Source of the DNA: Kiloniella laminariae
GTDB lineage: Bacteria > Pseudomonadota > Alphaproteobacteria > Kiloniellales > Kiloniellaceae
NCBI RefSeq assembly: GCF_027214005.1
Contig: NZ_JAPWGY010000007.1
Span: 1 to 64,000 of the forward strand
DNA length: 64,000 nucleotides
Reading direction: 5' to 3'
This document shows, one piece after another, positions 27,947 through 44,166 of this stretch. Both the position numbers and the translations under genes were made by a program. Below the pieces are notes generated by a model. It searched no databases and was not told the origin of the DNA. It saw nothing but the letters and a program-made list of their open reading frames with translations. Every line of letters starts with the position of its first letter. The stretch's first letter is position 1.

Positions 27947-28014
27947 AAAGTAATTAACCAAATAAAAATAAGTTTACTCACATCAGAAGATTGCAATGCA
28001 TGGAAACCCTGACG

Positions 28015-29937
28015 TTAACTATACCAGCCTGTTTGGCAAATAAGGTACAGGGAAACAATATCACTTAGCTCTGATCCTTCAAGTTTTTCACCGACAATAT
28101 ATCGGTCTACTAATTCAGAAGCATAACCCAAATTAAATGTGTCTGGGTGGAGAATTTCTTCATAGGGTTTGGCTTTTAGAGTGTCAATGGCGAGGTTTCT
28201 CATTGATGAGTGATAAAGTAACTCAAAGTTATGGTTAAAGTTATGGTCAGTGTCATAAGTGTAGGAATGTGGCCCTGTTTGTAGGTCCTTGGGGTAAGGA
28301 ATACGGGTTCCTAGCATAGATTTTAAAAGGTATTTAGTCGATTTGAAGTCCAAGCCTCTGCCGTAACTTTCAGGCATGACTTTGAGTAAATTTTGTATTT
28401 GACCATCCCAATAAGGCATATCAGATTTTGCACCAAAATGGTCGGACATAATGTGGGCTGTTAAAACTGTTGATCCTTGCCAGTGAAAGCTATTGTAAAG
28501 ATCAAGGTACCAAGAATAAATTTCCTCTTCCACTGAGTTTTCTATGCCTTGAAAATAGCATTCTTGCATGTTCCTGGTGTATTTTTCTGCTCCTGATGGC
28601 TTTAACAGCTTTGAGTTCGTTATTGACCAAAAAGGCATCCGCCCATTGCGAAGGAAAAAACTCGTGAGCATTTGGCGCATCTGACCGCCATAGGTGCTGT
28701 CGGGATCATCAAAATTGGTTGCGCCGGCCTTTGACTTGAATAGTTGAAAGATAGGGTCTTGGTTATAGGATTTATTTTTTATTTGTTTTATGAAAGTTGG
28801 CCCAAATAAATAAGAGGCCATCTTATCTGCATATTCGCGAAAATCGTATGAGGGGTGGAAAATTGTAGCGTATTGACTGAAGCCTAGATTGTGAGCACCA
28901 TCACTAATCTCTCCAATATAACTTGTCTCTTCCCCACATGCAGTGTCTTTAATTTTTTGTGCTAATAAATAGTGGTTTAGACCGGTAATACTTTGAAAGT
29001 TGTGTTTTTTAAATATAGGTTTAGCGTCACTAATAGTCTGTGGGGCATTATTTAAATGATCGAGATCGACGATGTCGATTTTAACCCCATAATGTTCAGA
29101 AAATTTCTTTGCTCGTTCGATCTCATATCTGTTGCAAATACCACTACGTTCCGAATATTTCATTTGCCCGATTACGCCACGTACCTTTTGGGGACCTCGT
29201 AAATGGACCAAGCCAGCTAATATCGAAGTGGAATCCCATCCCGAGGAGAGGAATATCGCATTGCCATCTGAAGAAGAACTCGCTTCGAGATGGTCCAGAA
29301 AAGAATCAACATAATTTTTCTCTTCATGTATACCAAAGTCTTCTTGTTGTTTTTTGGCATACATAGGCCTGTGGTGTATTTTGAAATTGTTATGATTGAT
29401 AGAAATAGTTTCCCCAACACCTAAACGGGTTACTGATTTATATATGGTATGCTTTTTGGGCGGTCGATGTCCGTAATAAGTTAGTGTGTGCGCTAATGCG
29501 CATTGGTCGTACCCGTCTCTAGCTGGATTTTCAGGTAAAAGCGACAAATCACTTGCTGCAGTTACGATTTCGTTTGATCGCTGAAGATAGACGTCTATTT
29601 TTCCAAATTGATCTCGGTAAATATTAGTTTTGCCATTCGCTTGAACCCAAACCAGTAAAAACCGCCCTTCAAGGTGCTCCTGAATATTAATCTCAGTTTT
29701 CCCACTTATATCCTGAAGAGCAGACATAGTTGTAGGGTACGGGTGTAGCTTGTGTGTTTTGTCTCGCCATCCAAGAATGTTACCAAAGCAAAATAACTTA
29801 TCACCGGCTAAGGTAGAGATTGAGGTTGCGCCATTTCCTTCGGCGCTGAAGTATGGAGACGAATACAGGCTCGTTAAGGTATTACTGCTGATTGCGCACC
29901 CTTGAGCTATTTGCCCAATATTTAATTTGAATTCCAT
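28015..29937 (-). CDS. Asparagine synthase-like protein lacking the glutaminase cysteine
   Basis: About 640 residues. The synthetase half is recognisable: FLSSGWDSTSILAGLVHL is the PP-loop near residue 229 (SSGWDS instead of SGGxDS), followed by MKYSERSGICNRYEIERAK. The N-terminal half keeps the fold-like FLLVWVQANGKTNIYRDQFG, but the protein starts MEFKLNIGQI, with no MCG, so it has no Cys nucleophile to hydrolyse glutamine. It may use free ammonia or another amine, or be a beta-lactam-synthetase-like amide former. The frame starts at 29967, but the ATG at 29937 is preferred because of a GGGG motif and minimal overlap with the GNAT gene. Confidence 0.8.
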   Translation of the reverse strand: MEFKLNIGQIAQGCAISSNTLTSLYSSPYFSAEGNGATSISTLAGDKLFCFGNILGWRDKTHKLHPYPTTMSALQDISGKTEINIQEHLEGRFLLVWVQANGKTNIYRDQFGKIDVYLQRSNEIVTAASDLSLLPENPARDGYDQCALAHTLTYYGHRPPKKHTIYKSVTRLGVGETISINHNNFKIHHRPMYAKKQQEDFGIHEEKNYVDSFLDHLEASSSSDGNAIFLSSGWDSTSILAGLVHLRGPQKVRGVIGQMKYSERSGICNRYEIERAKKFSEHYGVKIDIVDLDHLNNAPQTISDAKPIFKKHNFQSITGLNHYLLAQKIKDTACGEETSYIGEISDGAHNLGFSQYATIFHPSYDFREYADKMASYLFGPTFIKQIKNKSYNQDPIFQLFKSKAGATNFDDPDSTYGGQMRQMLTSFFLRNGRMPFWSITNSKLLKPSGAEKYTRNMQECYFQGIENSVEEEIYSWYLDLYNSFHWQGSTVLTAHIMSDHFGAKSDMPYWDGQIQNLLKVMPESYGRGLDFKSTKYLLKSMLGTRIPYPKDLQTGPHSYTYDTDHNFNHNFELLYHSSMRNLAIDTLKAKPYEEILHPDTFNLGYASELVDRYIVGEKLEGSELSDIVSLYLICQTGWYS

Positions 29938-30491
29938 AAGTACCCCGGATCCCCTCTTCGTTGCCAAATATCAGTAAGAACTCCGTCCTCTCTTTCCAAT
30001 TTTTCGTCAGGGAGAATATGGAATCCTGATTTTGTAAAAGCACTTTTTGATCCAATATTTAGAGGATCTATTGCGGCTCTGATTTGTTCTATATTGAGTT
30101 GGAGTAGCGCATAATTACTAACAGTAGTAATAATTTTGTTCCCCCACCCTTGCCCCCAAAGTGATATGTCAAAAATAGCCAAACCTAGCCATGCACAGTT
30201 TTGTGTAATGTCATGTAATCGACAGGTGCCAGAGTGCTTTCCTCGGACAAAAAATCCAAACAGTATAGCGCTACGATCCTCATCGTTCTCTAGTACAAAT
30301 TGAGTGACATTTTTACGGGTATATTGACTCCCCGTATGAGCTGCTAGGTATTTTCTAACGTGAGGATGGTTTAAACTATCTATATAATTCTGATGAATAT
30401 CTTCGATTTTTAGAGGCCGTAGTAATACATCCTCATTAATATATAAGATCGGAACGCTGGTTTTATGGAAATTTTGTGATGATATTGTCAT
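29922..30491 (-). CDS. GNAT-family N-acetyltransferase (RimJ/RimL-like)
   Basis: 189 residues. The family pattern is LLRPLKIEDIHQNYIDSLN at the N-terminus, then HSGTCRLHDITQNCAWLGL, the acetyl-CoA loop region DISLWGQGWGNKIITT, and LNIEQIRAAIDPLNIGSKSAFTKSGF in split form. In nonulosonic-acid loci GNAT enzymes of this size (PseH, NeuD-like) acylate amino sugars. Here it follows a class III aminotransferase by two bases, so it probably acylates the amino group that enzyme installs. The substrate is inferred. Confidence 0.86.
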   Translation of the reverse strand: MTISSQNFHKTSVPILYINEDVLLRPLKIEDIHQNYIDSLNHPHVRKYLAAHTGSQYTRKNVTQFVLENDEDRSAILFGFFVRGKHSGTCRLHDITQNCAWLGLAIFDISLWGQGWGNKIITTVSNYALLQLNIEQIRAAIDPLNIGSKSAFTKSGFHILPDEKLEREDGVLTDIWQRRGDPGYLWNSN

Positions 30492-30493
30492 CG

Positions 30494-31822
30494 TTAGATA
30501 ATCGCTCTAAATACAGGCTTAATTTCTGGACCTACTAATAAATTTTTTGCATTCCGATTATCCAAAGCCATTAAATATATATCGCATGCATTTTCAAAGG
30601 CCTGGCATGTCAACCTTATATCCCGCTCTGAGTGGCTAGGTGTAACTATAAAGACACCTTGGAATAATATTCCGTAAGAAGCCATTTCTTGCATGAATAA
30701 GGTCCTGAAAGTCCAGTCGAGTTTCTTGTCTGGCCCTAAAATATTGAGCAACATATTACAAGGATATCCACTTATTTGGAGATAATCGTTTAATCCTTTA
30801 TCTACAATAATATTTGAAAGGCTATTTTTTAGGAGTATTCCTGTATCCCAAATTTTTGAAATGTAATTTTTCTGTTTAAATAGCTTAATCGTGCTCATCA
30901 TAGCAGCTAATCCTACAGATTCTGCCCCATGAGTACTGGATAATAGAAACAACTTTGGGTCACCCGTTCTTGAGATCCCCCCAAGTTCCATAATTTCTGA
31001 ACGACCAGTTAGTGCTGCGAACGGGAAACCATTGGCAAAGCCTTTTCCATAAGTATTCAGGTCTGGAACTACGGCGTAATAACTAGAAGCGCCAGGAATT
31101 CCCATTTTTAGACCAGTTATCATCTCATCTAGGATCCACAAGGTTCCATTTCGATCGCAAAGCTCTCGTATACCCTCCAAGAAACCTTCTTTCGGAGGGT
31201 CAAATTTTACAGGCTCCATTAGAACACAAGCAATTTGACCGGGGTACTGAGTAAATAGTGCCTTCAATGAATCAAGATCATTATAGGAAAATGTTATCGT
31301 AAATTTCTTCAGTTCATCCGGGATACCATAATTGGCGGCGGTGACGCCTATAAACCAGTCATCAAAGGAGAAAAAGGGATGTTCTTTGGGAACAGCAACA
31401 ATCTTTCTACCAGTAAAGGCACGGGATAATTTAACTGCTGCTGTGGTAACGGAGGAGCCATGGCGAGCAAATTTCACCATGTCAGTTCCTGTCGTCTCCA
31501 GGAATACTTCTGCTGCTTCAAGCTCAATGCTACTTGGTCTGGATAAGTTCACGCCCTGTGAAAGAGTGTTAATTACAGCTTGATTAACATCAGGCGTAGC
31601 ATGCCCAATAGAAACAGATGCCAAGCCCATAGACCAGTCAATGATTTCATTCCCATCCGCATCCCAAAGGTGTGTTCCTAAACCTCTGACTATCCCTGAT
31701 GATGATAATTCCGGATATTGATCACTGCCCTTTGAATAGGTATGTGCTCCCCCAGGAATTACCCTTTCTATACGCTTAGTGAATTCATGTGATTTTTTAA
31801 AAGACAGTTTACTATTTTTCAT
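30494..31822 (-). CDS. Class III (glutamate-1-semialdehyde-type) PLP aminotransferase
   Basis: 442 residues, close in length to HemL. VIPGGAHTYSKGSDQYPE lies near the N-terminus, WSMGLASVSIGHA follows, WILDEMITGLKMG holds the cofactor Asp, and NTYGKGFANGFPFAAL carries the Schiff-base Lys. A haem-pathway HemL would not be expected in a glycan operon. In NeuB/SpsF-containing loci such enzymes are thought to aminate a sugar or an acyl side chain. It overlaps the SpsF-like gene by 11 bases and is followed by the GNAT gene. Confidence 0.88.
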   Translation of the reverse strand: MKNSKLSFKKSHEFTKRIERVIPGGAHTYSKGSDQYPELSSSGIVRGLGTHLWDADGNEIIDWSMGLASVSIGHATPDVNQAVINTLSQGVNLSRPSSIELEAAEVFLETTGTDMVKFARHGSSVTTAAVKLSRAFTGRKIVAVPKEHPFFSFDDWFIGVTAANYGIPDELKKFTITFSYNDLDSLKALFTQYPGQIACVLMEPVKFDPPKEGFLEGIRELCDRNGTLWILDEMITGLKMGIPGASSYYAVVPDLNTYGKGFANGFPFAALTGRSEIMELGGISRTGDPKLFLLSSTHGAESVGLAAMMSTIKLFKQKNYISKIWDTGILLKNSLSNIIVDKGLNDYLQISGYPCNMLLNILGPDKKLDWTFRTLFMQEMASYGILFQGVFIVTPSHSERDIRLTCQAFENACDIYLMALDNRNAKNLLVGPEIKPVFRAII

Positions 31823-32609
31823 GGTCGTGAACTTCTTTTTGGCAATGAGCCCATAGAGGTGTCATATCAACGTAGGGTTCTACTAATTTGTGGAGTTCTG
31901 GGTGCTGATCGACAAATTTCAATATTGCCCCTGTTGGTATATGAGGTTTTGTGCCCTTTAGGTTTTTATATACCGCGCGGCATAGGATTAAATCCTCTGG
32001 ATTGTCTACAGTTAGCCGTATGTCAAGACGCGCCCAGTCTTTTTGACACGGAATTACTTGGATCTTAAATTGATCGTGACAACGTCTTGCATAGGCAGAA
32101 CAGAACTCGCTTCTTTCGTTGTCATTTCCTTTTTGATGAGACTTTACAAGCGCAGCTAAAGAATAAATCTCAAAATTCAAACCCTCAGGCAAAAATTCTG
32201 TAACTGTAATATCATTATTATTCTTTTTATGCTCTCGCCAAGCTTCAGGAAGCATCTCCCAAGACGTAAAAGGGCACTCGCTTGTAATCCTGAAAACATC
32301 AGTGGCTGCTTCATGGCGACCACATTGTACTAGGCGCTTTAACACATCTTTTTGATCACCAAGTATGTAACTAATCTCATGATGCTTGGCTACGTCTACA
32401 AATATTTGGTTTTCTATGCCTTCTGAAATACCGAGCACGATGGCGTCTATTTCATTTGTGGATTTCATTTCTTCAATAATGTGATCAAGAATTGTGATTC
32501 CTTGATCCAAATTTTGAAGGGGTTTTCCGAAAAGCCGGGAGCCCCCAGCCCTGCAAGCGAGAGCAGCTACAAGACGTTGTTCTTTTATTGCAGGTAGGTT
32601 GGTTTTCAC
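31812..32609 (-). CDS. SpsF/NeuA-like cytidylyltransferase
   Basis: 265 residues. The nucleotide loop LVAALACRAGGSRLFGKPLQ matches the SpsF group. IDAIVLGISEG, DVFRITSECPFTSWEMLPEA and LDIRLTVDNPEDLILCRAVY follow in family order. SpsF proteins are usually paired with SpsE (NeuB-like) synthases and activate the ulosonic acid product as a CMP-sugar. Here an SpsE-like gene lies just upstream. The start is a GTG at 32609; no ATG fits. It is the second CMP-sugar-type enzyme in the window, the other being the KdsB-like one at 10089. Confidence 0.85.
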   Translation of the reverse strand: MKTNLPAIKEQRLVAALACRAGGSRLFGKPLQNLDQGITILDHIIEEMKSTNEIDAIVLGISEGIENQIFVDVAKHHEISYILGDQKDVLKRLVQCGRHEAATDVFRITSECPFTSWEMLPEAWREHKKNNNDITVTEFLPEGLNFEIYSLAALVKSHQKGNDNERSEFCSAYARRCHDQFKIQVIPCQKDWARLDIRLTVDNPEDLILCRAVYKNLKGTKPHIPTGAILKFVDQHPELHKLVEPYVDMTPLWAHCQKEVHDHEK

Positions 32610-32614
32610 TTCTA

Positions 32615-33598
32615 TTACTCAATATCACTTTGTTTTAAGGGCTGAGATTTTTTTACTGCTGTAGTTAATTTTTTACCGATGACAAGATCAGGATTCTCCA
32701 TCCCCAATGGTATATTCGGGCGAATGAGGGTTATATCTGAGGTCTGAAGAGTGTGACCTGCAGGCAAGTCATGGATTAGGACAATTTTTTTAACCGCTTT
32801 ATTGCGATACTCTAGTTCTTGTGGTGTGGGTACTATATCACTACTGCCAATGGCGGATAACGAACGTTTAATTGAATGGACATAAGCCTTGAATTCTTTG
32901 GGGGCTAGCGCAGAGACATAGTCCTCTATTTTTAGAAGTCTATCTAGGGTGATGTGCTTTTCTATGATCCGGCAACCCAGTATGAGTGACATGGCAGTTA
33001 TTGCTGCTGCATCTTCTGATGCTCCATCAACATGATCTAAAAAGCCTATTTCAGTATCTAAAGAATGTGATAGGGCTGGAATACGGGCAAGATTGGTTAA
33101 ATTAAGAGGGGTTGGTTCCGACTGAAACCCGTACATCAAGGTCACATCTGGACGAGTTTTTAGATTATAATAATGAGTATATTCTTGTAATTCCTCGAGA
33201 GTAATTCCGCCAAAAGCAATCAATACGGGTTTGCATTCGTTTAGGACTTTTTGAGTAAGATCCTTATCGAAAAATGTTGTGGTGTGGAGTTTAAAGCCAT
33301 CAACATTGATTTTTTTTGCAATACTAAAAGATCTATCCCCAAAAACATCGGCATAAAATTCAATGCCAAGCTCTGCTGCATAGTCTTTTACCTCTTGCCA
33401 GCTTTCGAGAGGCATTTCCAAAGACTTAAATATATCATAGTGGATATTTCCCGGAGCAGCCAGTTCATCGACAAAAACTATTTGGAACTTTACAGCATCA
33501 GCTTCTGCTTCCTTTGCACTACGTATAAGCAGCTTCGCTAAGTCAACGCTACCTTCATAACCCTGTGCAGCTTCGGCGATGATTTTTAAACTCGTCAC
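32615..33598 (-). CDS. NeuB/SpsE-family sugar-acid synthase (paralogue A)
   Basis: 327 residues. The TIM-barrel NeuB domain has LKIIAEAAQGYEGSVDLAK, ADAVKFQIV, and the metal/PEP-site region LSHSLDTEIGFLDHVDGAS and RIIEKHITLDRLLK. A C-terminal SAF (antifreeze-like) domain follows (DLPAGHTLQTSDITLIRP, DLVIGKKL). The family condenses PEP with an N-acyl-amino sugar to give a nonulosonic acid. It starts with a GTG in a GTGA overlap with the preceding oxidoreductase. Its N-terminal domain is shorter and more diverged than the 35226 paralogue. Confidence 0.86.
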   Translation of the reverse strand: MTSLKIIAEAAQGYEGSVDLAKLLIRSAKEAEADAVKFQIVFVDELAAPGNIHYDIFKSLEMPLESWQEVKDYAAELGIEFYADVFGDRSFSIAKKINVDGFKLHTTTFFDKDLTQKVLNECKPVLIAFGGITLEELQEYTHYYNLKTRPDVTLMYGFQSEPTPLNLTNLARIPALSHSLDTEIGFLDHVDGASEDAAAITAMSLILGCRIIEKHITLDRLLKIEDYVSALAPKEFKAYVHSIKRSLSAIGSSDIVPTPQELEYRNKAVKKIVLIHDLPAGHTLQTSDITLIRPNIPLGMENPDLVIGKKLTTAVKKSQPLKQSDIE

Positions 33599-34557
33599 GT
33601 TTCTGATATCTCAATCTGGAGGTTCATTATTCGATTAGCATCTTTTACAGAAGTAACCGGGGAGGAGAGACCTTTAATCCCATCAAGAACATGTTGTGTT
33701 TGTAAAACATACATTTCATTGAGATCATCTAATTTTCCTTCAGGAAAATTAACGGTTTCATTATTTTTTCTAATGAGTTTAAGTCCATCATGGAAATCCC
33801 ACTCTATAACACCTTTCGTTCCTGCGATTTCATATCTCCGACGGTAAACGGGATAAAGATAATCCATCTGGAGTGTTGTGAAGTTTCCGTTCTCATGATG
33901 CAGGCAGGCAATAGCTATATCGTTGGTATCGATTTCAAGATTTCCGGTATTCTTTGCCATGGATTTAATCGACTTGATAGGACTTAAAAGCCAAGCGATA
34001 GCATCAAGTTCGTGTGCATCGAACTCGATGCCTCCCCCTAAATCTTTACGAGCGGAATAAGTTTTGCGATAATCTTCCCAAGGATGCCAGTCGGGTAGCC
34101 AATATCCCCCATGTACTCTTGAAGAGAAGATATTGCCAATATCTCCATCATTAATGAGTTGTTTCATCTTTATAAATGCAGGGTGAAATTTCCAATTCGA
34201 GCCTACGTGTACAAACAGCTTCTTTTCTTCGATTGTTCTGATTAACTGGGGCACGTTGGTATTATTGGTTCCTAATGGCTTTTCGATGAGCAGATTGCAA
34301 CCATGTCTTGCTGCAAGTATGGATTGCTGAATATGAAATGAATTAGGGCTTGCAATTACAACCAGATCGGGTTTTTTTTTTAAACAGTTTTCGAAGTCAT
34401 CACTGCTATCTGAATCCATCTCTGCTTCAAAAGATGCCCGCCTTTCAGCGTTAGGATCATACCCGATAATATCGGTGATTCCGCAGGACTTTAAATTTCT
34501 GGCGTGCCGAAGGCCAATGGAGCCTAGGCCGGATATTAATACTGTTGGCTGTACCAT
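33595..34557 (-). CDS. Gfo/Idh/MocA-family oxidoreductase
   Basis: 320 residues. The Rossmann motif is VLISGLGSIGLRHARNLK, the lysine motif NLLIEKPLGTN, and the active-site region GGGIEFDAHELDAIAWLL has the expected acidic residue and His. It is similar in architecture to PtmF/NeuB-locus oxidoreductases. A run of ten As in the coding strand (+ strand T10 at 34372-34381) encodes KKKP, in frame. It likely oxidises or reduces a sugar on the way to the nonulosonic acid made by the adjacent synthase; the exact substrate is unknown. Confidence 0.86.
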   Translation of the reverse strand: MVQPTVLISGLGSIGLRHARNLKSCGITDIIGYDPNAERRASFEAEMDSDSSDDFENCLKKKPDLVVIASPNSFHIQQSILAARHGCNLLIEKPLGTNNTNVPQLIRTIEEKKLFVHVGSNWKFHPAFIKMKQLINDGDIGNIFSSRVHGGYWLPDWHPWEDYRKTYSARKDLGGGIEFDAHELDAIAWLLSPIKSIKSMAKNTGNLEIDTNDIAIACLHHENGNFTTLQMDYLYPVYRRRYEIAGTKGVIEWDFHDGLKLIRKNNETVNFPEGKLDDLNEMYVLQTQHVLDGIKGLSSPVTSVKDANRIMNLQIEISET

Positions 34558-34575
34558 TCTTACCCCAAGCTTTTG

Positions 34576-35238
34576 TTATAAATAATAAAATCTAAGGTCG
34601 TTCGCGATACACTTTGCCCAAGCACGTAAAATACGATAATTCGCCTTGAGTACCCCACCAATTCGAGCCTGATTGTCTTGGCGGGAAATTATATTAATCG
34701 GTACACTTGATATCTTTCCCCCGTCCCTGGCAACATCTAGCAAGAGGCCTGTATTGATAGTTTTTCTGGTCTTGGGGTTGTTATATTTTTTATATACATC
34801 TGATTTTATCGCTTTCAATCCACACAGAGGGTCTGGAATTGAAAAACGTTTTTTTGTATAATAACCAAAAAGATACTCGGAAAACCGTGGAAAATAATTT
34901 CGTGCACCGATAGCTATAGAAGTATTGTCGTCTGACATTGCTTTTAGAACGCTATGAACGGATTCTAAACTGTGTTGTCCATCTGCATCGCAGGTTAACA
35001 GGATTTGTGCGTCTCGTTCAATCGCTGCGACAAAGCCAGCAGCGAGAGCTTTATCATATCCACGGTTCTTGTCATGCTTGATTACAGTTGCACCTCCACG
35101 TAGCGCTTCTGTCGATGTTCCGTCTATAGAGCCATCATCAACAACAATAACCAAACCTATTCCTGTTAGGCCTTTTACAATATCATATATTGTATTGGCT
35201 TCATTGAGAGCCGGGATGATTATTGCTACTTTGGGCAT
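34576..35238 (-). CDS. GT2-family glycosyltransferase (dolichol-phosphate-mannose-synthase-like)
   Basis: 220 residues, a minimal GT-A domain. KVAIIIPALNEANTIYDIV, LVIVVDDGSIDGTSTEALR, VIKHDKNRGYDKALAAGF and AQILLTCDADGQHSLESV (the DAD metal motif) are in order. PDPLCGLKAIKSDVY also fits the DPM1-like subgroup. No membrane segment is seen. Small GT2 enzymes of this kind commonly sit inside NeuB/SpsE/SpsF cassettes. It overlaps the upstream NeuB paralogue by 13 bases. Confidence 0.87.
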   Translation of the reverse strand: MPKVAIIIPALNEANTIYDIVKGLTGIGLVIVVDDGSIDGTSTEALRGGATVIKHDKNRGYDKALAAGFVAAIERDAQILLTCDADGQHSLESVHSVLKAMSDDNTSIAIGARNYFPRFSEYLFGYYTKKRFSIPDPLCGLKAIKSDVYKKYNNPKTRKTINTGLLLDVARDGGKISSVPINIISRQDNQARIGGVLKANYRILRAWAKCIANDLRFYYL

Positions 35239-36299
35239 TCGATATCTTTGCTACGTACACAATCCCCTTCAGGGATATCTCGGGTTAATCTTTGGCCAAT
35301 TAGGGTATGTATTTTATAAGGTTCTAGAGCATCCTTTGGACAAGGGCGCAGAACAACCAAATCCTCTGGTTTGATAATTGATCCAGCTGTTAGGTTTTTG
35401 GCTGTGCGTATTGCGCGTCTTTGTACGACAACGGTTTCCAGTTCATTCGGCATTATAGTCTTTTCATGACTACCTAGTGCTGCCTCTAACCATCTTGTTC
35501 GCTCAACCATTAAGGACCATGATTTAGGATCCATTGCGAATAGGTGATCGGGTCCTTCACGATTATTATCATCAGTGAAGTGTTTCTCAATAACACGTGC
35601 CCCCAAAGAAACGGCACCAAGAACAGTCATGTCTCCTGGGGTATGATCGGAAAGTCCGAGAACTGTATTTGGGAAGAATTTTTTATAGGTTTTTAAGACG
35701 TTAAGGGCAGAATAACTTATATTATCAATGTTACCAGTGTAGTTAGTATTGCATTGCATTAGAACAAGTTTATCTGTTTCTTTATTTGCAACATCCATCG
35801 CCAAAACAACTTCGTTCATAGTTGTCGCGCCAGTTGCCAGCAAGAGTGGTTTGTCATCTGAGGCTAGTTTTGAAATCATTTCATGCCATGTTATGTCACC
35901 AGAACCAAGCTTCCATGCACAAACGTGTTCGCTTAAATAATCGACTAATCCAAGGTCATAAGGGGTCGTGAAATAGTCAATTTTTGCTTCTAGGCATGAT
36001 TTTTTGAGTTCTTCTGTCCATTCGATTGGTAGAGATGCTTCTCTATATACCTCGACAACTGATTTTTTCCATTTTGATTGATGCCCGAGACCAGTATCTA
36101 AATTGGCGAAGCCATAATTGGACACAATTGTTTCAGCTATAAAATTTTGAAATTTTGCAGCGTTTGCACCGGCTTCAGCTGCAAGAAATATTAGTTCCTT
36201 AGCCCTTTCAAGAGATCCATCATGATTTGCAGCGATATCAGCAATAAAATAAGTTGGGTACTCCATACCAATAGTATTTTTCCCAATTGAAATGTTCAT
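35226..36299 (-). CDS. NeuB-family nonulosonic acid synthase (paralogue B)
   Basis: 357 residues, the full NeuB/PseI length. The barrel includes YFIADIAANHDGSLERAKEL, AAKFQNFIAETIVS, YFTTPYDLGLVDYL, VLGLSDHTPGDMTVLGAVSLG and ARVIEKHFTDDNNREGPDH. A C-terminal SAF domain contains NLTAGSIIKPEDLVVLRPC. It condenses PEP with an amino-sugar such as ManNAc or a 2,4-diacetamido hexose. All recognisable catalytic regions are present. It lies 47 bases after the FlaA1/PseB-like dehydratase. It could be a PseI- or LegI-type enzyme, but the rest of neither pathway is complete here. Confidence 0.9.
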   Translation of the reverse strand: MNISIGKNTIGMEYPTYFIADIAANHDGSLERAKELIFLAAEAGANAAKFQNFIAETIVSNYGFANLDTGLGHQSKWKKSVVEVYREASLPIEWTEELKKSCLEAKIDYFTTPYDLGLVDYLSEHVCAWKLGSGDITWHEMISKLASDDKPLLLATGATTMNEVVLAMDVANKETDKLVLMQCNTNYTGNIDNISYSALNVLKTYKKFFPNTVLGLSDHTPGDMTVLGAVSLGARVIEKHFTDDNNREGPDHLFAMDPKSWSLMVERTRWLEAALGSHEKTIMPNELETVVVQRRAIRTAKNLTAGSIIKPEDLVVLRPCPKDALEPYKIHTLIGQRLTRDIPEGDCVRSKDIECPK

Positions 36300-36346
36300 T
36301 GCTTAGTGTCCGTTGATCTTCTTCAAATATAAGATTTTTGAGTATA

Positions 36347-37351
36347 TTATACGTCGGATTCAATTACTGAGCGTAACTGTTCAGTATTAAACCACTCTGT
36401 GTTTGTGTCGCTGGCATATTCAAAATTTTGTCTAACGGGTTTACCTTCTTCGCCATTGAATACGGGGCTTTCATCGTAATCCCAGAACGTAGATTGTGGC
36501 CTAATAATGTAGTGATCTTTAAATTCAAGGGTATTGCGAGCTTCATCTTTTGGAATCATCATCTCATGCAGCTTTTCGCCTGGGCGAATGCCAACGATAT
36601 CTTGCCTACAGTTCGGATCGATTGCAGAGGCGAGATCTGTAATTTTCATTGATGGAATTTTGGGGACAAAAATTTCTCCCCCTCTCATACGCTCTGCTGA
36701 ATCGATTACAAACTGTACACCGCTGGTAAGAGTAATCCAGAAACGAGTCATTCGGGGATCCGTAATAGGGAGTACTCCTTCTTTTGCCCTCTCCCTAAAG
36801 AAGGGAATGACGCTTCCCCGAGATCCGATGACGTTCCCGTATCTAACGACTGAAAATCTGGTTCCGCCAATATCTGAGAGGTGATTTGCTGCAACAAATA
36901 ATTTGTCTGAACAAAGCTTTGTTGCGCCGTACAAGTTGAGGGGGTTTACCGCCTTATCTGTTGATAGGGCGATAACTTTTTTTACTCCGGTATTAATCGC
37001 GGCGTTAATTATGTTTTCAGCACCCAAAACATTAGTCTTAATACATTCAATAGGGTTGTATTCTGCCGCGGGCACCTGTTTTAAAGCTGCTGCGTGAATG
37101 ACATAGTCAACACCCTTAAAAGCTCTTTCTAGCCGAGCCTCATCCCTGATATCTCCGAGGAAGTAACGAAGATTTGGATGAGATATTGTCTGTGCCATTT
37201 CAAACTGCTTGAGCTCATCCCGTGAGAAGACTATCAGGCGTTTTGGGTTATGATCTTTCAGTAATTTTGAAATAAAAACTTTACCAAAGGAGCCTGTGCC
37301 ACCTGTTACAAGTATCGACTTTTCATTAAAAATGCTCATATTGCTAACCAT
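36347..37351 (-). CDS. FlaA1/PseB-like UDP-GlcNAc 4,6-dehydratase (inverting type)
   Basis: 334 residues. The cofactor motif ILVTGGTGSFGKVFISKLL and KRLIVFSRDELKQFEMAQ are hallmarks of PseB/FlaA1 short dehydratases. YVIHAAALKQVPAAEYNP, LSTDKAVNPLNLYGATK (YxxxK), and PGEKLHEMMIPKDEA follow. The enzyme converts UDP-GlcNAc to a UDP-4-keto-6-deoxy hexose, the first step of pseudaminic-type sugars. The ATG at 37351 overlaps the RmlD-like stop by 8 bases; an internal ATG at 37339 is also possible. No PseC-like aminotransferase is adjacent. Confidence 0.9.
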   Translation of the reverse strand: MVSNMSIFNEKSILVTGGTGSFGKVFISKLLKDHNPKRLIVFSRDELKQFEMAQTISHPNLRYFLGDIRDEARLERAFKGVDYVIHAAALKQVPAAEYNPIECIKTNVLGAENIINAAINTGVKKVIALSTDKAVNPLNLYGATKLCSDKLFVAANHLSDIGGTRFSVVRYGNVIGSRGSVIPFFRERAKEGVLPITDPRMTRFWITLTSGVQFVIDSAERMRGGEIFVPKIPSMKITDLASAIDPNCRQDIVGIRPGEKLHEMMIPKDEARNTLEFKDHYIIRPQSTFWDYDESPVFNGEEGKPVRQNFEYASDTNTEWFNTEQLRSVIESDV

Positions 37352-38228
37352 TCATTTCTGTATATAAATCGTCTATACCTTCATCAATTGAAGGCATCTT
37401 TCGGCCAAGGAACGTCGAAATTTTTTGTGAGCTCAATGACATATCTTTAGGCCGTGGTGTTTGCGATTTTGTTTCACAGCTTTTTATACCCTTAACCTTC
37501 TCTTCGGGTAAACCAAATTTAGTGGCTACTTTTTTGATGAAGTCGTATTTGGAAATTCTCTCACTACTGACGACGTTGTAAATTCCCCTCGCATCAAGTG
37601 AGATCAGATCTAGTAAAAGATTAATGAGTTGCTTCCTGTGGAGAGGGGTGAAATGTATATCAGTATAGCCGTTTAGATCTTCCCTCTTCTGCAGTGAGCT
37701 TATGATCCAGTCAGAGAACGAGGGGCGCCATTCGAGGCCTTTACCATAAAAATTCGTGCGAGCAATGAGAGCCTTGGGGTTTGCTGCAAGTACCTGTTGT
37801 TCCCCGTTGCTTTTCGTTTCCGCATAATTGTTCAGGGGAACGGGTTGTAAGGTTTCTGGAACGTATTTCTGTGTGCCGTCCCATAAATGGTCGGTAGATA
37901 TATAAACCATCTTGCAAGAATTGTTATAAGCCCATTTGGCCATCAGTGTGGGAGCTGTAACGTGCAACTCTGTAGCCAAGTTAAGATTTGTTTCGCATTG
38001 ATCAATATTTGTAAGGGCAGCACAGTGGATTATTATCGTAGGGGCAGCGCTTTCTAATACATGGCTTATGGCATTTTTGTCTGTAATGTCGCATTTCTTT
38101 ATAAGTGCCTTGTCTATTTTTATTTTGTGGTGATTGATAAGCCCTATAGCTACTGAATGTTTATTATTTAATTCGGCACATAGAGCGCTGCCCAACAAGC
38201 CACTGGCGCCGGTAATTAACCATTTCAT
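37344..38228 (-). CDS. RmlD-like (dTDP-4-dehydrorhamnose reductase family) SDR
   Basis: About 294 residues of the extended-SDR RmlD family: WLITGASGLLGSALCAELN, TIIIHCAALTNIDQCE, MVYISTDHLWDGTQ, and YAETKSNGEQQVLA with the Tyr and Lys. KKVATKFGLPEEKV and TPRPKDMSLSSQKI lie in the C-terminal part. It reduces a 4-keto nucleotide sugar. Next to the FlaA1-like dehydratase it may reduce that enzyme's 4-keto product. The frame opens at a TTG at 38243; the ATG at 38228 gives the usual family N-terminus and is preferred. Confidence 0.86.
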   Translation of the reverse strand: MKWLITGASGLLGSALCAELNNKHSVAIGLINHHKIKIDKALIKKCDITDKNAISHVLESAAPTIIIHCAALTNIDQCETNLNLATELHVTAPTLMAKWAYNNSCKMVYISTDHLWDGTQKYVPETLQPVPLNNYAETKSNGEQQVLAANPKALIARTNFYGKGLEWRPSFSDWIISSLQKREDLNGYTDIHFTPLHRKQLINLLLDLISLDARGIYNVVSSERISKYDFIKKVATKFGLPEEKVKGIKSCETKSQTPRPKDMSLSSQKISTFLGRKMPSIDEGIDDLYTEMNG

Positions 38229-38361
38229 TGAGTTTTCATTCAATCTTTTTATCGTGTGAGAAAGATTTTCTGTGATTGTTGCTTAATAAATTGCTGTTTT
38301 CTAAAGAACCGGCTTTATACGTAAGCGGTGCAGCTTTTGCATACTCTTCTGTAAGTTCGGA

Positions 38362-40161
38362 TTATGTCATCACGTTACCAGTAATCGCGAGATCTCGAAA
38401 CGAAGCATTTCGTGAAATAATATCTGAAAAGTGGCCACAATCAACAACCTTTCCATGCTCCATATATACAATTTTATCAAAAGACTTTAGAGCGCCTAGC
38501 CTATGAGTAACAAATATTAGCGTACTTGTTGAGTGCTGGGATAGTAGTTCATCGATAATGAATTTTTCAATCTTTAAGTCTAATGCTGAAGTTGCTTCGT
38601 CGAAGATCAGAATTTCTGGCCTATTGTAGAGTGCCCTTGCAACTCCAATTCGCTGAGCTTGTCCGCCAGAAAGTTGAGAACCTTCATCTCCTACAATTGT
38701 ATCTAAACCGTCAGGTAAGGCAGCGATAAATTCTGTTAAACCAGCATTGAGGACTGCATGGTTCACGGCTGCCGAATCAATCTCCTCGTCGGTTATCCCT
38801 AAGGCTATGTTACGGCGTATACTATCGTCATTAATATAAATTTTTTGTGGAACATATCCGATCATTTTTCGCCAGGAGGGTAAATCGAAAAAAATATTGT
38901 TCGTATCGCAAAGAATTTCACCTTTTTGGGGGCATTGGAAACCCAGCAATAAATCAACTAGCGTTGATTTTCCAGCCCCCGAGCTGCCTACAATAGCAAT
39001 GTTCTCTCCCTTATTAAGGGTAAGGTTTATGTTTTCGATCTGCCCGCTTTCTTGTTTGGGATGTCTATACCAAACGGAATTGAATTTAATAGAAGCATTA
39101 TAGCTAAGTTTATTATTAGTAGTGAAGGCTGTTGGAGTTTGTACCGTTTTAATGAATTTAATTTCTTCAGTTAAGCAATCTATCGCGACTGCTCCAGCCC
39201 GGATTTGCTGAGCCGCTACTAACATTCTGTTAGTTGAGGATGCCACTCTTAAACTTGCAGCGCCAAGCAATGCTAAGCTGGCAATAATTTCACTAGAAGA
39301 CCGTTGTGTTGAAAGGATTAGAATAATTAGAGCAAGGCTAACAGCGATGAGTATCTCAAGAATAAACCTAGGGGCTATTTGATATAATCTCTGTTCCGCT
39401 GAGATTTTTGTAAGATTTTTGGTATAGTTATCAACAAGATTAATTATATATTTTTGTCTATTGAGAATGTGCAATTCTTTCAGGGCGCCATATCCTTGTC
39501 TAATCCAAGTCAATTGCTTGATGTTAATGCTTTGATAAGATTTCGCTAAAATTCCAAGTCTTTTATGCAGCAACAGATAAAAAACAAAGCCTCCGCCTCC
39601 TAAAACAACAAAGGCAATGCCAGAGGAAAGGGGATCAATTGCTACTAGTACAATCAGGGCAAGGAGGACTGTAATGAGTTCAATTACAATCGCTGTAGCA
39701 GGAAGAATGATCATTGAAACTATTTGTCGACTCAATGCATAAACATTTCTTATGAGTTCTGACGTGCTTCGTACTTTTACCTTAGAATATGGAGCTTTGA
39801 GGTGACTGGAGAATATAGATGATACGAGAGATGCCTCGAATCGTACTAACGTATTGTTTTGCCAATGATAAATCGCTAAGGACCCGATATTTTTGAATAC
39901 AATGAGCCCAAAAATAGAAATTGCTAAAAAAATTGAAATTTGTTCACGATCATAGCCTGAGAAAAAAACGTAAATAATTTTCACTATAGAGTTTTTATCC
40001 AAGCCATCATCATCTAGTAGCATGAGTATAAGTGGGAAAACCAGGCCTAAGCCTAATACTTCAAGAGCAGACAACGTTGCCCCTGAAAGGACTATCAAAG
40101 GGGTTAATCGTCTTGTCTGAGGGTCAAGCAGACTGAGTAAATTTAAAAATTTATTTTTCAT
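38362..40161 (-). CDS. ABC exporter/flippase (PglK/MsbA-like)
   Basis: 599 residues with fused membrane and ATPase domains. Hydrophobic segments lie near residues 20-40, 60-80, 130-185 and 250-300. The nucleotide-binding domain has Walker A VGSSGAGKSTLVDLLLG, Q-loop region FDLPSWRKMIGYVPQK, signature LSGGQAQRIGVARAL, Walker B EILIFDEATSALD and the switch His in FVTHRLG. PglK flips lipid-linked oligosaccharides in Campylobacter N-glycosylation. Here it is followed by glycan genes, so flipping a lipid-linked glycan is the likely role. It overlaps the aminotransferase upstream by four bases. Confidence 0.9.
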   Translation of the reverse strand: MKNKFLNLLSLLDPQTRRLTPLIVLSGATLSALEVLGLGLVFPLILMLLDDDGLDKNSIVKIIYVFFSGYDREQISIFLAISIFGLIVFKNIGSLAIYHWQNNTLVRFEASLVSSIFSSHLKAPYSKVKVRSTSELIRNVYALSRQIVSMIILPATAIVIELITVLLALIVLVAIDPLSSGIAFVVLGGGGFVFYLLLHKRLGILAKSYQSINIKQLTWIRQGYGALKELHILNRQKYIINLVDNYTKNLTKISAEQRLYQIAPRFILEILIAVSLALIILILSTQRSSSEIIASLALLGAASLRVASSTNRMLVAAQQIRAGAVAIDCLTEEIKFIKTVQTPTAFTTNNKLSYNASIKFNSVWYRHPKQESGQIENINLTLNKGENIAIVGSSGAGKSTLVDLLLGFQCPQKGEILCDTNNIFFDLPSWRKMIGYVPQKIYINDDSIRRNIALGITDEEIDSAAVNHAVLNAGLTEFIAALPDGLDTIVGDEGSQLSGGQAQRIGVARALYNRPEILIFDEATSALDLKIEKFIIDELLSQHSTSTLIFVTHRLGALKSFDKIVYMEHGKVVDCGHFSDIISRNASFRDLAITGNVMT

Positions 40162-41285
40162 TGATATGGAAATGTTTCTTCTATTGCAGCACAGATATTA
40201 TTCTGATCTGCCTCTGCTAAATAGGGGTGCATAGGCAAGCTGAACACTTGAGACGAAAGCTTTTCAGATGTGCTAAGACCAGCAGAGTCCATGGGAAAAT
40301 GTTTATAAGCCTGAAGCTTATTAAGAGGCGTTGGATAGTATACTGCTGTTGGAATACCCTTTTGGTCTAGGTGATCTCTAATCCTGTTACGATTTTTGCA
40401 GCATAAAGTGTATTGCGCCCATGCTGATCTTACACAGGTAGGTATCGCTTGTCTTGTAAGCGCGAGAGGAAGCCTTGTAGAATAATAATCAGCAATTTTC
40501 TGCCGGGCTAATATTTCAACAGAAAGGATCTGGATTTTCTCTATAAGTATAGATGCCTGTAGCGTATCTAGGCGGCTGTTCATGCCAATCCGTATATTAT
40601 CGTACTTATTTTTTCCTTTGCCATGAATACGTAAAGATTTGATACTTTCGGCAATTTCTGCATTATCGGTCAGAACTGCACCACCGTCACCATATGCGCC
40701 CAACGGTTTACTGGGGAAGAAGCTCGTTGTTGTTATGTCTGCCATCGTGCCGACTTGTTTGCTGCCACGAGCACCGCCAATACTTTGAGCTGCATCTGCT
40801 ATTACAAAAAGATTGTTTTCTTTTGCGATAGTTTGAATTGTTTCGTAATCAGGGACGGAGCCGAAGAGGTCTACAGCTATTATACCGCGTGGCCGAAAGC
40901 CTCGGGTTTTGGCGTCAAGAATTGAGCGCTTTAAGCTCGTCTGGTCCAATAAAAATGATTTTTCATCAACGTCAACGAAGTACGGTACAGCTCCTAAAAG
41001 GGCGACCGCTTCTGCGGAGGCAGCAAAAGTAAAGGCTGGTACGAAAATAATATCATTAGGCTGAATATCCATAGCCATCAGGGCGAGAGAAAGTGCATCG
41101 GTTCCATTTGCACAGCTTATGGCGTAATGTGCCCCTGTGTATTTTTCTAAAGCGATCTCGAATTCACGGACTTCGGGGCCCATAATAAATTGGCCGTGAT
41201 GTATTACTTTCTGAATTGCAGCTTCTATTGCGCCATTTAAGTTCAAACGTTGCGCATCTAGGTTGATAAAGGGGATGCTTTTCAT
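40158..41285 (-). CDS. DegT/DnrJ/EryC1/StrS aminotransferase (WbpE-like)
   Basis: 375 residues. [20 protein letters not shown] at the start and [19 protein letters not shown]-type [11 protein letters not shown] are family hallmarks. [17 protein letters not shown] and [19 protein letters not shown] (Schiff-base Lys) follow, with [15 protein letters not shown] near the dimer loop. It aminates the 3-position (or another) of a keto nucleotide sugar, with Glu as amino donor. With WbpB- and WbpD-like genes next to it, it is best read as WbpE: amination of a 3-keto UDP-GlcNAc uronate. Confidence 0.89.
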
Positions 41286-41878
41286 ATCGGAACTTCTGTA
41301 AAATTGACTTTGATCACAAGATAGCCGTCTAGGTTTTCTTCGTATTCTGTATTGTCAATTGGGCATACGAGATTTTTCTCTAGTTTTGATCCGGCTTTAC
41401 TCATCCAGCCGATCTGCTTTGCTGGAACGCCAGCCATCAGGGCAAATGGTTTGACGTTTTTTGTCACAACCGCACCAGCGGCAATAAAACTGTATTCCCC
41501 AAGTTCGTGGCCACATACAATCGTCGCATTAGCTCCTATTGTGGCGCCTCTGCGAACCGTCGTATCCAGAAACTCTTCCTTTCGCTCTATTTCCGCCCTC
41601 GGATTGTTGACGTTCGTAAAAACACAAGAAGGTCCACAAAATACACCGTCTTCAATTGTAATTCCTTTGTAGATACTTACGTTGTTTTGAATTTTACAAT
41701 TGTCCCCGATTTTTACAGACGGCCCAATCATAACATTTTGTCCTAAAGTACAATTTTTCCCGATCGTTACATCACCAAGGATGTGACTGAAATGCCATAT
41801 TTTTGTACCTTCGCCAATTTTAACATTGGCATCAATGTATGAACTTTCATGAATATAGGTTGATGATGGAGCGGGCAT
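41282..41878 (-). CDS. WbpD/WlbB-like hexapeptide N-acetyltransferase
   Basis: 198 residues. The left-handed beta-helix starts at [18 protein letters not shown] and runs through [18 protein letters not shown] and [16 protein letters not shown], with [16 protein letters not shown] (the WbpD-type loop) and [19 protein letters not shown]. The tail carries a Cys-containing extension ([12 protein letters not shown]). It N-acetylates UDP-3-amino-GlcNAc uronate to UDP-GlcNAc(3NAc)A. It overlaps the WbpE-like gene by four bases and follows the WbpB-like oxidoreductase by 12. Confidence 0.9.
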
Positions 41879-41890
41879 GTTTGGGGGCTT

Positions 41891-42832
<942 letters not shown>

Positions 42833-42886: not shown

Positions 42887-42898
42887 CATGCTACCGCA
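42887..42898 (-). promoter_or_regulatory. Candidate ops-like element (NusG-paralogue recruitment site)
   Basis: The leftward strand reads TGCGGTAGCATG. This contains the invariant GCGGTAG core of the E. coli ops element (consensus GGCGGTAGNNTG) and mismatches it only at the first base. It lies in the 119-base gap between the NusG-like gene and the WbpB-like gene, at the upstream end of the long biosynthetic run. In E. coli, ops in the non-template strand recruits RfaH to paused RNA polymerase. The only other same-strand GCGGTAG noticed in the leftward operons is inside coding sequence (20625-20631). Confidence 0.45.
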
Positions 42899-42951
42899 CT
42901 TCGGGTGAATTACTATTCTGCCCGGTTATCTTTGCTGCCAACATTTGCTGC

Positions 42952-43443
42952 CTAGGTAGCAGGTGTTACATTGAGACGTGAGGTCGTTGCAGTAACTTCT
43001 CTACCAAGTAAATCCAATAAGATGCTAATTCGTTCTTTGTCAATCATTTGTGATAGAGTCCCGATTACATTTGCAAATGGGCCGGTTAGAAATTTCACTT
43101 TGGTGCCTATTCGCAAATCTGGGTCAGCATGCTCTGGGGTGTTACTTGTATCTTTTAAGCAGGAAACAAATTGATCGGGTAGACTCGGCAGATGGTTGCC
43201 ATTCGCAACAAGGCGGCGAACGCCAAAAGTGTTATTTATAGGACTCCAACTGTCAATTGTCACATCTAGTGCTACAAATATATATCCGGGGAATAGAGGC
43301 TTTTTGACGATGTCAATTTTCCTGGCATGTTTGCGGGACTTCATGAAGTAAGGCAGAAACACCTGATATCCTTGCCGGGCAAGGTTTATTTCAGCTCTGA
43401 TTTCTTGATTAGCTTGAGTGTTGACCACGTACCACTTTTTCAT
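42952..43443 (-). CDS. NusG-paralogue processive antiterminator (RfaH/UpxY-like)
   Basis: 163 residues. The NGN domain opens with KKWYVVNTQANQEIRAEINL and contains FPGYIFVALDV. A KOW domain follows from LRIGTKVKFLTGPFANVIG and EVTATTSRLNV. It is too short and too specialised to be housekeeping NusG and matches RfaH-like proteins in length. Such factors travel with RNA polymerase and suppress termination in long surface-polysaccharide operons. It is the second gene of the candidate 18-kb unit, starting in an ATGA overlap with the MarR_EPS-like gene, and is followed by an ops-like motif. Confidence 0.87.
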   Translation of the reverse strand: MKKWYVVNTQANQEIRAEINLARQGYQVFLPYFMKSRKHARKIDIVKKPLFPGYIFVALDVTIDSWSPINNTFGVRRLVANGNHLPSLPDQFVSCLKDTSNTPEHADPDLRIGTKVKFLTGPFANVIGTLSQMIDKERISILLDLLGREVTATTSRLNVTPAT

Positions 43444-44066
43444 GAGTTTTCCTTGCCCAAGATATCAGGAGAATGGACGCGGAGAAAATCCGGAACAATT
43501 AATTGAGCGTTGACCTTAAGTCGGCGGGCTTTCTCGAAAGTTGCCTGAGGTTCATCTGAATCTGTGAGAACAAGAGCATCGTATGAGGTGGCTTCATCCA
43601 GTGTTTTTAGTACAACTAAGTTTCCAATAGCCTCGCGCTGAGATTTTGCATCAATGATGGCAACTAGTTCAATTTTTGAATCCCAAGCCGCCATAATGGC
43701 TATTTCTGCCAACTCTCCTGCGCCAAGCAATATGATCCTGTTTTGGCCGCGAATATGAGCTTGTTCGAATATTTCAACATACTGTCTACGGGCATTTTTG
43801 AAAAACCCGAGTGAGCTGTCCAGATATTCCACAACGAGTCGACTTTTTTCACTAAAACCCCTCGGTGTCAGGTAGTAAGCAAATCTTTTGTAAGGTGCAG
43901 ATTTTGCTTTGACATAACCCTTGTTGATGGCTCGTTTTAAAAGGGCGTTTGTAAAGCCGATCGAAACCCCTATCCGTTTTGACAAGGTCATCTGTGACAT
44001 AACTTCGCCTTCCTCAAGAGAGTGAAGAAATTCGATGTCTGTTTTGATGTCCGACTTAGGTGGCAT
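43440..44066 (-). CDS. MarR_EPS-like winged-helix regulator with C-terminal Rossmann-like domain
   Basis: 208 residues. The first 90 (FLHSLEEGEVMSQMTLSKRI, GVSIGFTNALLKRAINKGY, YYLTPRGFSEKSRLVVEYLD) match the winged-helix 'EPS-associated MarR family' regulators that precede polysaccharide operons. The rest has RIILLGAGELAEIAIMAA, a nucleotide-binding-like GxGxxxE loop, then LVAIIDAKSQREAIGNL and VLTDSDEP, as in PglD/NeuD N-terminal domains. This suggests a DNA-binding protein that senses a nucleotide or nucleotide sugar; that is inference. It is the first gene of the unit, with a candidate promoter and a 45-bp palindrome directly upstream. Confidence 0.8.
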   Translation of the reverse strand: MPPKSDIKTDIEFLHSLEEGEVMSQMTLSKRIGVSIGFTNALLKRAINKGYVKAKSAPYKRFAYYLTPRGFSEKSRLVVEYLDSSLGFFKNARRQYVEIFEQAHIRGQNRIILLGAGELAEIAIMAAWDSKIELVAIIDAKSQREAIGNLVVLKTLDEATSYDALVLTDSDEPQATFEKARRLKVNAQLIVPDFLRVHSPDILGKENS

Positions 44067-44095: not shown

Positions 44096-44124
44096 AATCT
44101 ATCGACATTTTTTGAGGGGGTCAA
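44096..44124 (-). promoter_or_regulatory. Candidate sigma70 promoter of the 26036-44066 operon
   Basis: Reading leftward, TTGACC (44119-44124) and TAGATT (44096-44101) are spaced by 17 bases, a five-of-six -35 and a four-of-six -10. The ATG of the regulator gene lies about 30 bases downstream. The -35 overlaps the last three bases of the 45-bp palindrome at 44122-44166, so a factor bound there would contact or block RNA polymerase. Confidence 0.5.
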
Positions 44125-44166
44125 CTTTCGTTCATGTTGTGAACGTCACAATTTGAACGAAAGTTG
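44122..44166. promoter_or_regulatory. 45-bp near-perfect palindrome, probable operator
   Basis: Two 21-base arms around the centre ACG match at 19 of 21 positions. The outer 13 bases (CAACTTTCGTTCA / TGAACGAAAGTTG) are perfect, as is the inner TTGTGA / TCACAA pair. It lies between the divergent MarR_EPS-like gene and the amidotransferase at 44305 and overlaps the -35 of the leftward candidate promoter. It has no T tract and should lie upstream of the leftward transcript, so a protein-binding site is more likely than a terminator. Two nested half-site pairs may mean two dimers. Confidence 0.65.

Follow-up and report, generated by a model that had tools for sequence, protein, structure and literature searches.

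A MarR-like regulator, an RfaH-like NusG paralogue and a hairpin-ops element at the head of a long glycan operon in Kiloniella laminariae

The window analysed in this work, that is, the whole stretch of 64,000 nucleotides from Kiloniella laminariae, harbours a leftward operon of about 18 kb, which is headed by a marR-like gene and a nusG paralogue and continues into about 17 kb of glycan genes. The relevant features are the following, each with its strand and the basis of its assignment:

44122..44166, strand not applicable: 45-bp inverted repeat CAACTTTCGTTCA-N19-TGAACGAAAGTTG, a predicted MarR-like operator (palindrome enrichment)
44130-44144: exact GTTCA-N5-TGAAC, one copy, within the 45-bp inverted repeat
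44096..44124, minus strand: promoter-like TTGACC-17-TAGATT, a prediction, overlapping the edge of the inverted repeat
43440..44066, minus strand: MarR_EPS-like winged-helix protein with a C-terminal Rossmann-like domain, 208 aa (ORF list, NCBIfam profile scores)
42952..43443, minus strand: NusG paralogue, RfaH-like, 163 aa (ORF list, NCBIfam profile scores)
42902..42924, minus strand: leader RNA hairpin, CGGG/CCCG plus GAAT/ATTC, which includes the conserved TCACCC (folding, family-wide covariation)
42887..42898, minus strand: ops-like core TGCGGTAGCATG, with GCGGTAG inside it at 42891-42897(-)
26036..42832, minus strand: 15 glycan ORFs downstream of the element, the first a Gfo/Idh/MocA oxidoreductase (ORF list)

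The gene order, the strand, the overlap and the leftward unit down to 26036, as described in an initial annotation of this DNA, are borne out by the analysis: the two regulatory genes overlap by 4 bases and the leftward ORFs are near-continuous to 26036, the biggest gaps being of 118 and 119 nt. The same holds for the GCGGTAG core, which had been placed within 60 bases of nusG and lies 54 nt past its stop. A profile scan took in seven of the 15 glycan ORFs, the others being assigned by eye. Over its cut-off was a PseB; sub-cut-off matches comprised two NeuB/PseI-like synthases, a PglK/MsbA-like ABC transporter, an asparagine-synthase-like protein and a PFTS-motif protein. Promoter-like matches in the region occur at chance level (46 found, 50.0 expected from shuffles), as do the results of a terminator scan. 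A short ORF beyond the operon end (25142-25429, minus strand) resembles a transposase remnant by eye, and a fusion of adenylylsulfate-kinase-like and methyltransferase-like domains (23030-24175, minus strand) adjoins the glycan operon. The host genome, of 4.38 Mb, possesses one NusG besides the paralogue, on contig C10. Among named genomes scanned, that of Kiloniella laminariae DSM 19542 matches the NusG paralogue at 99% identity. To survey the order, wide regions were fetched by paralogue similarity around 20 of 26 paralogue rows (L035-L054): marR and nusG are direct neighbours in 19 of these loci, and the twentieth, L049, stops at a contig edge.

The first protein of the operon had been labelled MarR_EPS. 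This label is appropriate for its N-terminal part, which matches TIGR04176 with 51.9 bits, and does not extend to model membership, the cut-off being 88. The C-terminal Rossmann-like part, more variable than the winged helix in an alignment of 22 homologues, weakly matches NeuD/PglB/VioB (TIGR03570) over residues 111-162, with 19.5 bits against a cut-off of 160.8. The sugar sensing suggested in the initial annotation has its sole hint in this weak match. When the family profile was compared with solved structures, MarR was matched weakly (E 0.0034), and the C-terminal part found no convincing match in the same search. Upstream of marR, the most enriched hexamers are those of GTTCA/TGAAC. Specifically, the palindrome GTTCA-N5-TGAAC is exact in 62 of 86 such regions (dinucleotide-shuffle mean 0) and present with at most one mismatch in 79 (shuffle mean 0.65), often beginning five bases past a TTGAC or repeating 22-24 bases apart. 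From its position, GTTCA-N5-TGAAC is probably the operator of the MarR-like protein, and this candidate operator would represent a second, independent sequence mark of the regulon. The palindrome alone does not define the regulon, since the host genome contains 8 exact places and the reversed control 4.

The best NCBIfam match of the second protein is RfaH (TIGR01955), with 110.3 bits under an equivalog cut-off of 144.5. UpxY (NF033644, 63.1 bits, cut-off 100), housekeeping NusG (TIGR00922, 62.2 bits, cut-off 135.7) and LoaP (NF033641, 45.6 bits, cut-off 125) also stay below their thresholds, and against Pfam NusG the contig C10 protein scores 110.1 bits versus 74.1 for the window paralogue. 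In E. coli RfaH, according to the accessible part of PMC5995543, the side chains K10, H20, R23 and R73 contact ops and Q24 is found in the T6 pocket. The window paralogue displays Q10, N20, R23 and F73, thus keeping one contact of four, together with Q24. An E. coli-type reading of ops, as presumed from the core alone, was not adopted because the contact residues mostly differ; with R23 as the sole retained ops-contact side chain, the paralogue is not proven to be the reader of the motif. Among 106 distinct paralogues, position 10 is Q in 37, H in 25, K in 18 and R in 17, position 20 is N in 71 and H in 32 (N or H in 103), R23 occurs in 70, Q24 in 92 and R73 in 17; nine housekeeping NusG proteins in the alignment show Y, S/G/A, E and Q at positions 10, 20, 23 and 24. 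By this comparison with housekeeping NusG, the ops pocket of the paralogues is partly RfaH-like.

As for autoinhibition, E48 and F130 are reported as required in RfaH (PMC7593976, as far as accessible). At E48, I93 and F130 the window paralogue has K48, V93 and L130, none being kept, and in the 106 paralogues E48 is found in 6, I93 in 49 (V in 48) and F130 in 59. F56 is invariant among 24 aligned paralogues, and the Phe of the NusG Rho loop (position 146) is replaced by Leu or Met in 103 of 106, a loss whose significance as an RfaH-like trait is discussed in the same portion of PMC7593976. A single-sequence structure model of the paralogue reached a pLDDT of 32, too low to read the KOW fold.

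Taken alone, the 7-mer GCGGTAG is unremarkable, with 4 copies in the window and 3.28 expected; it is its conservation in relatives that makes it significant. GCGGTAGC is located within 260 nt past the stop of the nusG paralogue in 41 of 99 cases on the coding strand, in none on the opposite strand and in 5 with reversed letters, the corresponding figures for GCGGTAG being 41, 2 and 7. The 99 are those of the 106 distinct paralogues with a full 260-nt downstream window. This set mixes loci retrieved through the element with loci retrieved through the paralogue; the rate of 41 in 99 is thus not unbiased, and the strand contrast acts as its control. Offsets from the stop range from 48 to 217 nt, with 37 of 41 at 102 nt or less; just over half of the distinct paralogues (55 of 106) are without GCGGTAGC inside 260 nt. 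Less biased rates come from the search downstream of NusG paralogues in relatives that the initial annotation had proposed, and this search found the motif conserved. In the order, GCGGTAG lies within 300 nt past the nusG stop in 15 of 20 loci; L036, L037, L039 and L046 do not have it there, and L042 has just 36 nt left. The genomes of three of those four GCGGTAG-free loci (G018, G057 and G050) contain the exact element elsewhere. In the class, the exact element is found at most 400 nt downstream of 24 of 92 paralogues, on the same strand, across 19 families (tables, by eye). The likeness to ops proposed at the outset is exact for the GCGGTAG core and partial for the full 12-mer: TGCGGTAGCATG and E. 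coli ops12 GGCGGTAGCGTG agree in 10 of 12 letters, among them the C3:G8 pair, the loop and the TG at positions 11-12. As a separate observation, a stretch like ATACTATTTGTTAAGTAATTC precedes the next gene after nusG in L039, L040, L045 and L046, less exactly in L039, and occurs with or without the ops-like element.

The conserved unit is larger than the 7-base core originally noted. That is, the core stands, and the full element is TCACCC-N5-GCGGTAGC, which adds the arm of a hairpin. TCACCC and the core are invariant in the site set described below because the search pattern required both. The commonest spacers among 60 sites are GGACT (18), GGAGT (6) and GAAGT (4), and the core is followed by A or G in 46 of 60, then by T in 51 and by G in 39. 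In the host genome the extended pattern has one exact place, and with up to 3 mismatches it has 1 place, the reversed control also having 1. In the order, 22 of 61 genomes contain the exact pattern, at 30 places (reversed-pattern control, 2 places); in the class, 49 of 385 genomes do, at 52 places (reversed control, 7, counted by hand). A draw of 299 genomes from the phylum gave 23 places, 7 in the class and 16 outside, with 6 for the reversed control (hand count). The consensus form looks class-specific, because the spacers of the 16 outside places, compared by their letters, look mostly unlike the consensus, the nearest being GGATG and GCATG.

Within the class, the paralogue profile (A1, 21 of whose 24 rows came from loci fetched through the element) yields 92 rows at 117 bits or more in 89 of 385 genomes; rows at 91 bits or less were taken as housekeeping NusG. 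Element and paralogue co-occur with a Fisher p of 5e-24 over the 385 genomes: both are present in 42, the element alone in 7, the paralogue alone in 47 and neither in 289. In other words, the paralogue is found in 42 of 49 genomes with the element versus 47 of 336 others, and the exact element is absent genome-wide from 47 of 89 paralogue genomes. Six of the seven element-only genomes have their match inside long reading frames (L086, L100, L110, L116, L118, L130); the seventh, G285, which is 10% contaminated, has it behind a marR-like gene, where it overlaps an antisense frame as well. The 52 class places divide into 24 behind a paralogue, 11 that were dropped as lying in reading frames and 17 others. 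One of these 17, L087, is near a contig end, and about 23 letters of that end recur at another contig end, which directly follows a paralogue in this genome (L186). The other 16 stand at a different genomic location, after a lone marR-like gene or next to a pair differently arranged. For 16 of the 17, the genome has a paralogue. For 11 of the 17 (L090, L091, L122, L123, L124, L126-L129, L132 and L133), the 400 nt upstream contain the palindrome in exact form or with a single mismatch, a count taken without shuffle control.

Variants of the element, read by eye, are present behind 10 of 60 further class paralogues and include GCGGCAGC, GCGGAGC and a longer spacer; the reading covered 60 of the 68 class paralogues without the exact element behind them, omitting the last 8. 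GCGGCAGC, with T6 changed to C, follows paralogues at L157/L174 (G237), L181 (G293) and L189 (G387), and in these three paralogues residue 23 is D, A or E and R73 is retained. A coevolution of core base 6 and residue 23 is possible, and three cases are too few to use. Another core variant, GCGGAGCGTG, follows ACACCC behind the NusG paralogues of L206 and L210. Among plasmid-borne relatives (59 records matched), TCACCC-N5 precedes the core in none of the 6 loci read. Plasmids of Ensifer adhaerens (L249) and Agrobacterium sp. RAC06 (L244) carry RfaH-like loci with GCGGTAGC in their leaders, preceded by other short inverted repeats and no TCACCC, which suggests that wider hairpin-ops variants may exist. 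Two Chelatococcus plasmids have a MarR-like gene with no element and, in an incomplete gene table, no annotated nusG adjoining.

TCACCC-N5 forms the 3' arm of an RNA hairpin that shows covariation. The hairpin set derives from 78 element rows, reduced by one duplicate to 77 and by a further 17 to 60. The 17 were left out after their flanks had been viewed, 15 because they are inside reading frames of more than 120 codons and two (L059, L082) because they were judged doubtful, and at least 11 kept sites overlap open frames (L060, L064, L077, L080, L090, L091, L094, L104, L122, L123, L126). The choice of 60 is thus a judgement; a test on all 77 sites is free of it, and the dropped set serves as a partial negative control. 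The fold of the 25 nt before TCACCC together with the spacer is more stable than in shuffled sequences (mean z -2.35, 60 sites), and CCC is fully paired upstream in 44 of 60 sites, with 28.2 expected. A fixed-loop register test, which found no register for 22 of 60 sites, yielded a weaker signal, with 92 paired in columns 6-9 versus 76.9 (sd 4.6, maximum 92). As it forbade short loops and bulges, it was replaced by a permutation of folding energies. Following the exchange of five-base spacers among the 60 sites, the summed MFE rises from -793.4 to -662.6 (sd 13.8), a total cost of 131 kcal/mol, and none of 20,000 permutations is as low as the native arrangement. The z value of this test is -9.6 for all 77 sites and -8.3 for 46 dissimilar sites, and it is weak (-0.9) for the 17 dropped sites. 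Among the 27 spacer types, the native one folds best in just 15 of 60 sites. The window hairpin is weaker than most, with a 43-nt fold of -11.1 kcal/mol (z -1.74; 11 of 200 shuffles fold equally well) and a stem that ends four bases short of the core; L067, identical to the window over the hairpin stretch, has a z of -2.78. The 3' arm reaches right up to GCGGTAGC in 33 of 60 sites, and a polymerase halted on the T of the closing TG would there have ten bases between the stem and the RNA 3' end. Such a spacing would be close to that of pause hairpins.

The first ORF downstream was examined for 19 elements that are marR-linked or unlinked. Thirteen of these ORFs belong to glycan-cluster families (ABC transporters, DegT, CTP_transf_3, Polysacc_synt_2, NTP_transferase, GFO_IDH_MocA, FkbM and glycosyltransferases, one of the latter scoring below its cut-off); the other six are two methyltransferases, one MarR-like gene and three ORFs without family. 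Copies of the element also precede glycan genes unlinked to a paralogue. These copies, like the hairpin and the probable MarR operator, do not figure in the initial annotation. The initial view of a cis-encoded module of RfaH/UpxY type with an ops-like site is upheld as to conservation and has to be modified: the system is not purely cis, because in many relatives the element occurs away from the paralogue.

The regulatory head is real and larger than first noted, as it brings together the MarR-like fusion, the RfaH-like paralogue, the palindrome and the hairpin-ops element; the mechanism that we infer for it is strongly constrained. We consider it probable that these parts form a two-stage control head of the long glycan operon, with MarR acting at the promoter and the paralogue at a hairpin-ops pause. 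Binding, pausing and antitermination, as well as the direction of MarR control and any ligand, are proposed here on the grounds of the gene pair, the element and its covarying hairpin, the palindrome, the genome association and the distribution. In the first stage, the MarR-like protein would bind GTTCA-N5-TGAAC before its own gene and gate initiation, possibly in response to a ligand of the Rossmann domain. In the second stage, RNA polymerase would transcribe marR and nusG and arrive at the leader element, where a nascent RNA hairpin would form right before the ops-like pause GCGGTAGC-R-T-G. The paralogue, made from the same transcript, would bind the paused polymerase through the non-template GCGGTAGC loop and, by remaining bound, shut out housekeeping NusG, allowing the polymerase to cross the 17 kb of glycan genes. 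Unlinked glycan operons that carry the element, often with the palindrome, would likewise be served by this pair in many relatives. Extending this scheme to a two-key glycan system of Alphaproteobacteria, in which promoter control by MarR-Rossmann and GTTCA-N5-TGAAC is combined with recruitment, at the hairpin-ops pause, of a paralogue predicted to be free of RfaH-type autoinhibition, is a proposal to which we give even odds.

Other explanations have to be weighed against two-stage control. The paralogue could act in cis without reading the element, being loaded during its own translation, and the element could be a pause site or have another role. Cis loading is indeed proposed for monomorphic RfaH proteins in the accessible part of PMC13015549, which deals with ops-independent, cis-located homologues without some of the ops-binding residues. 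The window paralogue has K48 for E48 and L130 for F130, three of four ops contacts are missing from it, and many paralogues are without a neighbouring element. Yet cis loading requires neither an element behind the paralogue in 19 families nor one before unlinked glycan genes of paralogue-bearing genomes. We hold it to be unlikely. It is also conceivable, albeit quite improbable, that the reader of the element is the MarR/Rossmann protein or another factor, or that the element is a stand-alone RNA attenuator, its link with nusG then being indirect. A few elements do follow marR without an adjacent nusG (L060, L071, L080, L102, L104), and in G285 (L104), although that genome is contaminated, no paralogue was detected. 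Against this, the element or a one-mismatch form follows paralogues with no marR match in the fetched flank (L056, L097, L119, L205), marR has a palindromic candidate operator of its own and the core is identical to that of RfaH-ops.

A chance 7-mer behind a NusG paralogue, which the initial annotation had kept as a possible origin of the motif, would agree with the near-expected number of copies in the window and is contradicted by the strand contrast of 41 versus 0 and by the hairpin covariation, besides the conservation in order and class and the association across genomes. The motif behind the paralogue is not due to chance, an origin to which we assign next to no weight. A further caution applies to two-stage control itself, in that the element and the gene pair could have a common ancestry and yet no effect on each other.

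The recruitment mode of operon-encoded NusG paralogues is called unknown in the accessible part of PMC7593976, which also places 18% of RfaH genes in Alphaproteobacteria and describes a cluster, CL4, linked with an HTH regulator. An element found behind such paralogues in 19 families would offer a recruitment site that can be tested. Moreover, it would help to predict regulons for capsules and exopolysaccharides in Alphaproteobacteria, and it would allow one to test whether the reading of ops preceded autoinhibition. If the two-key reading were true, ops-type recruitment would operate without the K10/R73 contacts and without the E48/F130 autoinhibition, and proteins resembling early stages of RfaH evolution would already read ops, both in cis and in trans. 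A different alphaproteobacterial antiterminator is the subject of PMC11150451, as far as its accessible part indicates. Among the matches listed in a search of the open-access literature, no title or abstract opening describes a hairpin-ops element, which does not establish its absence in print.

In comparison with known systems, the leader shares with the JUMPstart RNA (Rfam RF01707) a stem-loop followed by GCGGUAGCGUG in polysaccharide leaders. It differs in that the UCACCC-N5 3' arm reaches the base before GCGGTAGC in those 33 of 60 sites, while the Rfam model has two more unpaired bases. The identification of the element as JUMPstart was rejected, the window scoring 14 bits against a gathering cut-off of 35; six relative loci gave no match to JUMPstart at E up to 5, and the RNA is listed for gammaproteobacteria in the accessible part of PMC2864571. 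The winged helix of the first protein, like MarR_EPS, stands at a glycan cluster and covers positions 6-87 of 105 of the model; unlike MarR_EPS, the protein remains below the model cut-off and has a Rossmann-like C-terminal part in 22 aligned homologues. As in Bacteroides UpxY and Myxococcus TaA, the paralogue gene is inside the operon that it presumably serves; here, a conserved candidate recruitment site is present, and the UpxY model stays below its cut-off.

The closest resemblance is with E. coli RfaH/ops, with which the system shares a NusG paralogue, glycan operons, the GCGGTAGC core in the leader, F56 and the replacement of the Rho-loop Phe. In particular, the presence of an ops element in target leaders, a criterion for RfaH, has its equivalent in the GCGGTAGC downstream of 41 of 99 paralogues as well as ahead of unlinked glycan genes. 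Differently from E. coli RfaH, the paralogue scores under the RfaH cut-off and is often encoded beside its target with a MarR-like gene, and it has Q10, N20 and F73 in place of K10, H20 and R73, with no E48 or F130. Finally, unlike E. coli ops, the core in this family directly follows a covarying RNA hairpin. On these sequence features, we read the hairpin-ops head as a new variant of RfaH/ops control.
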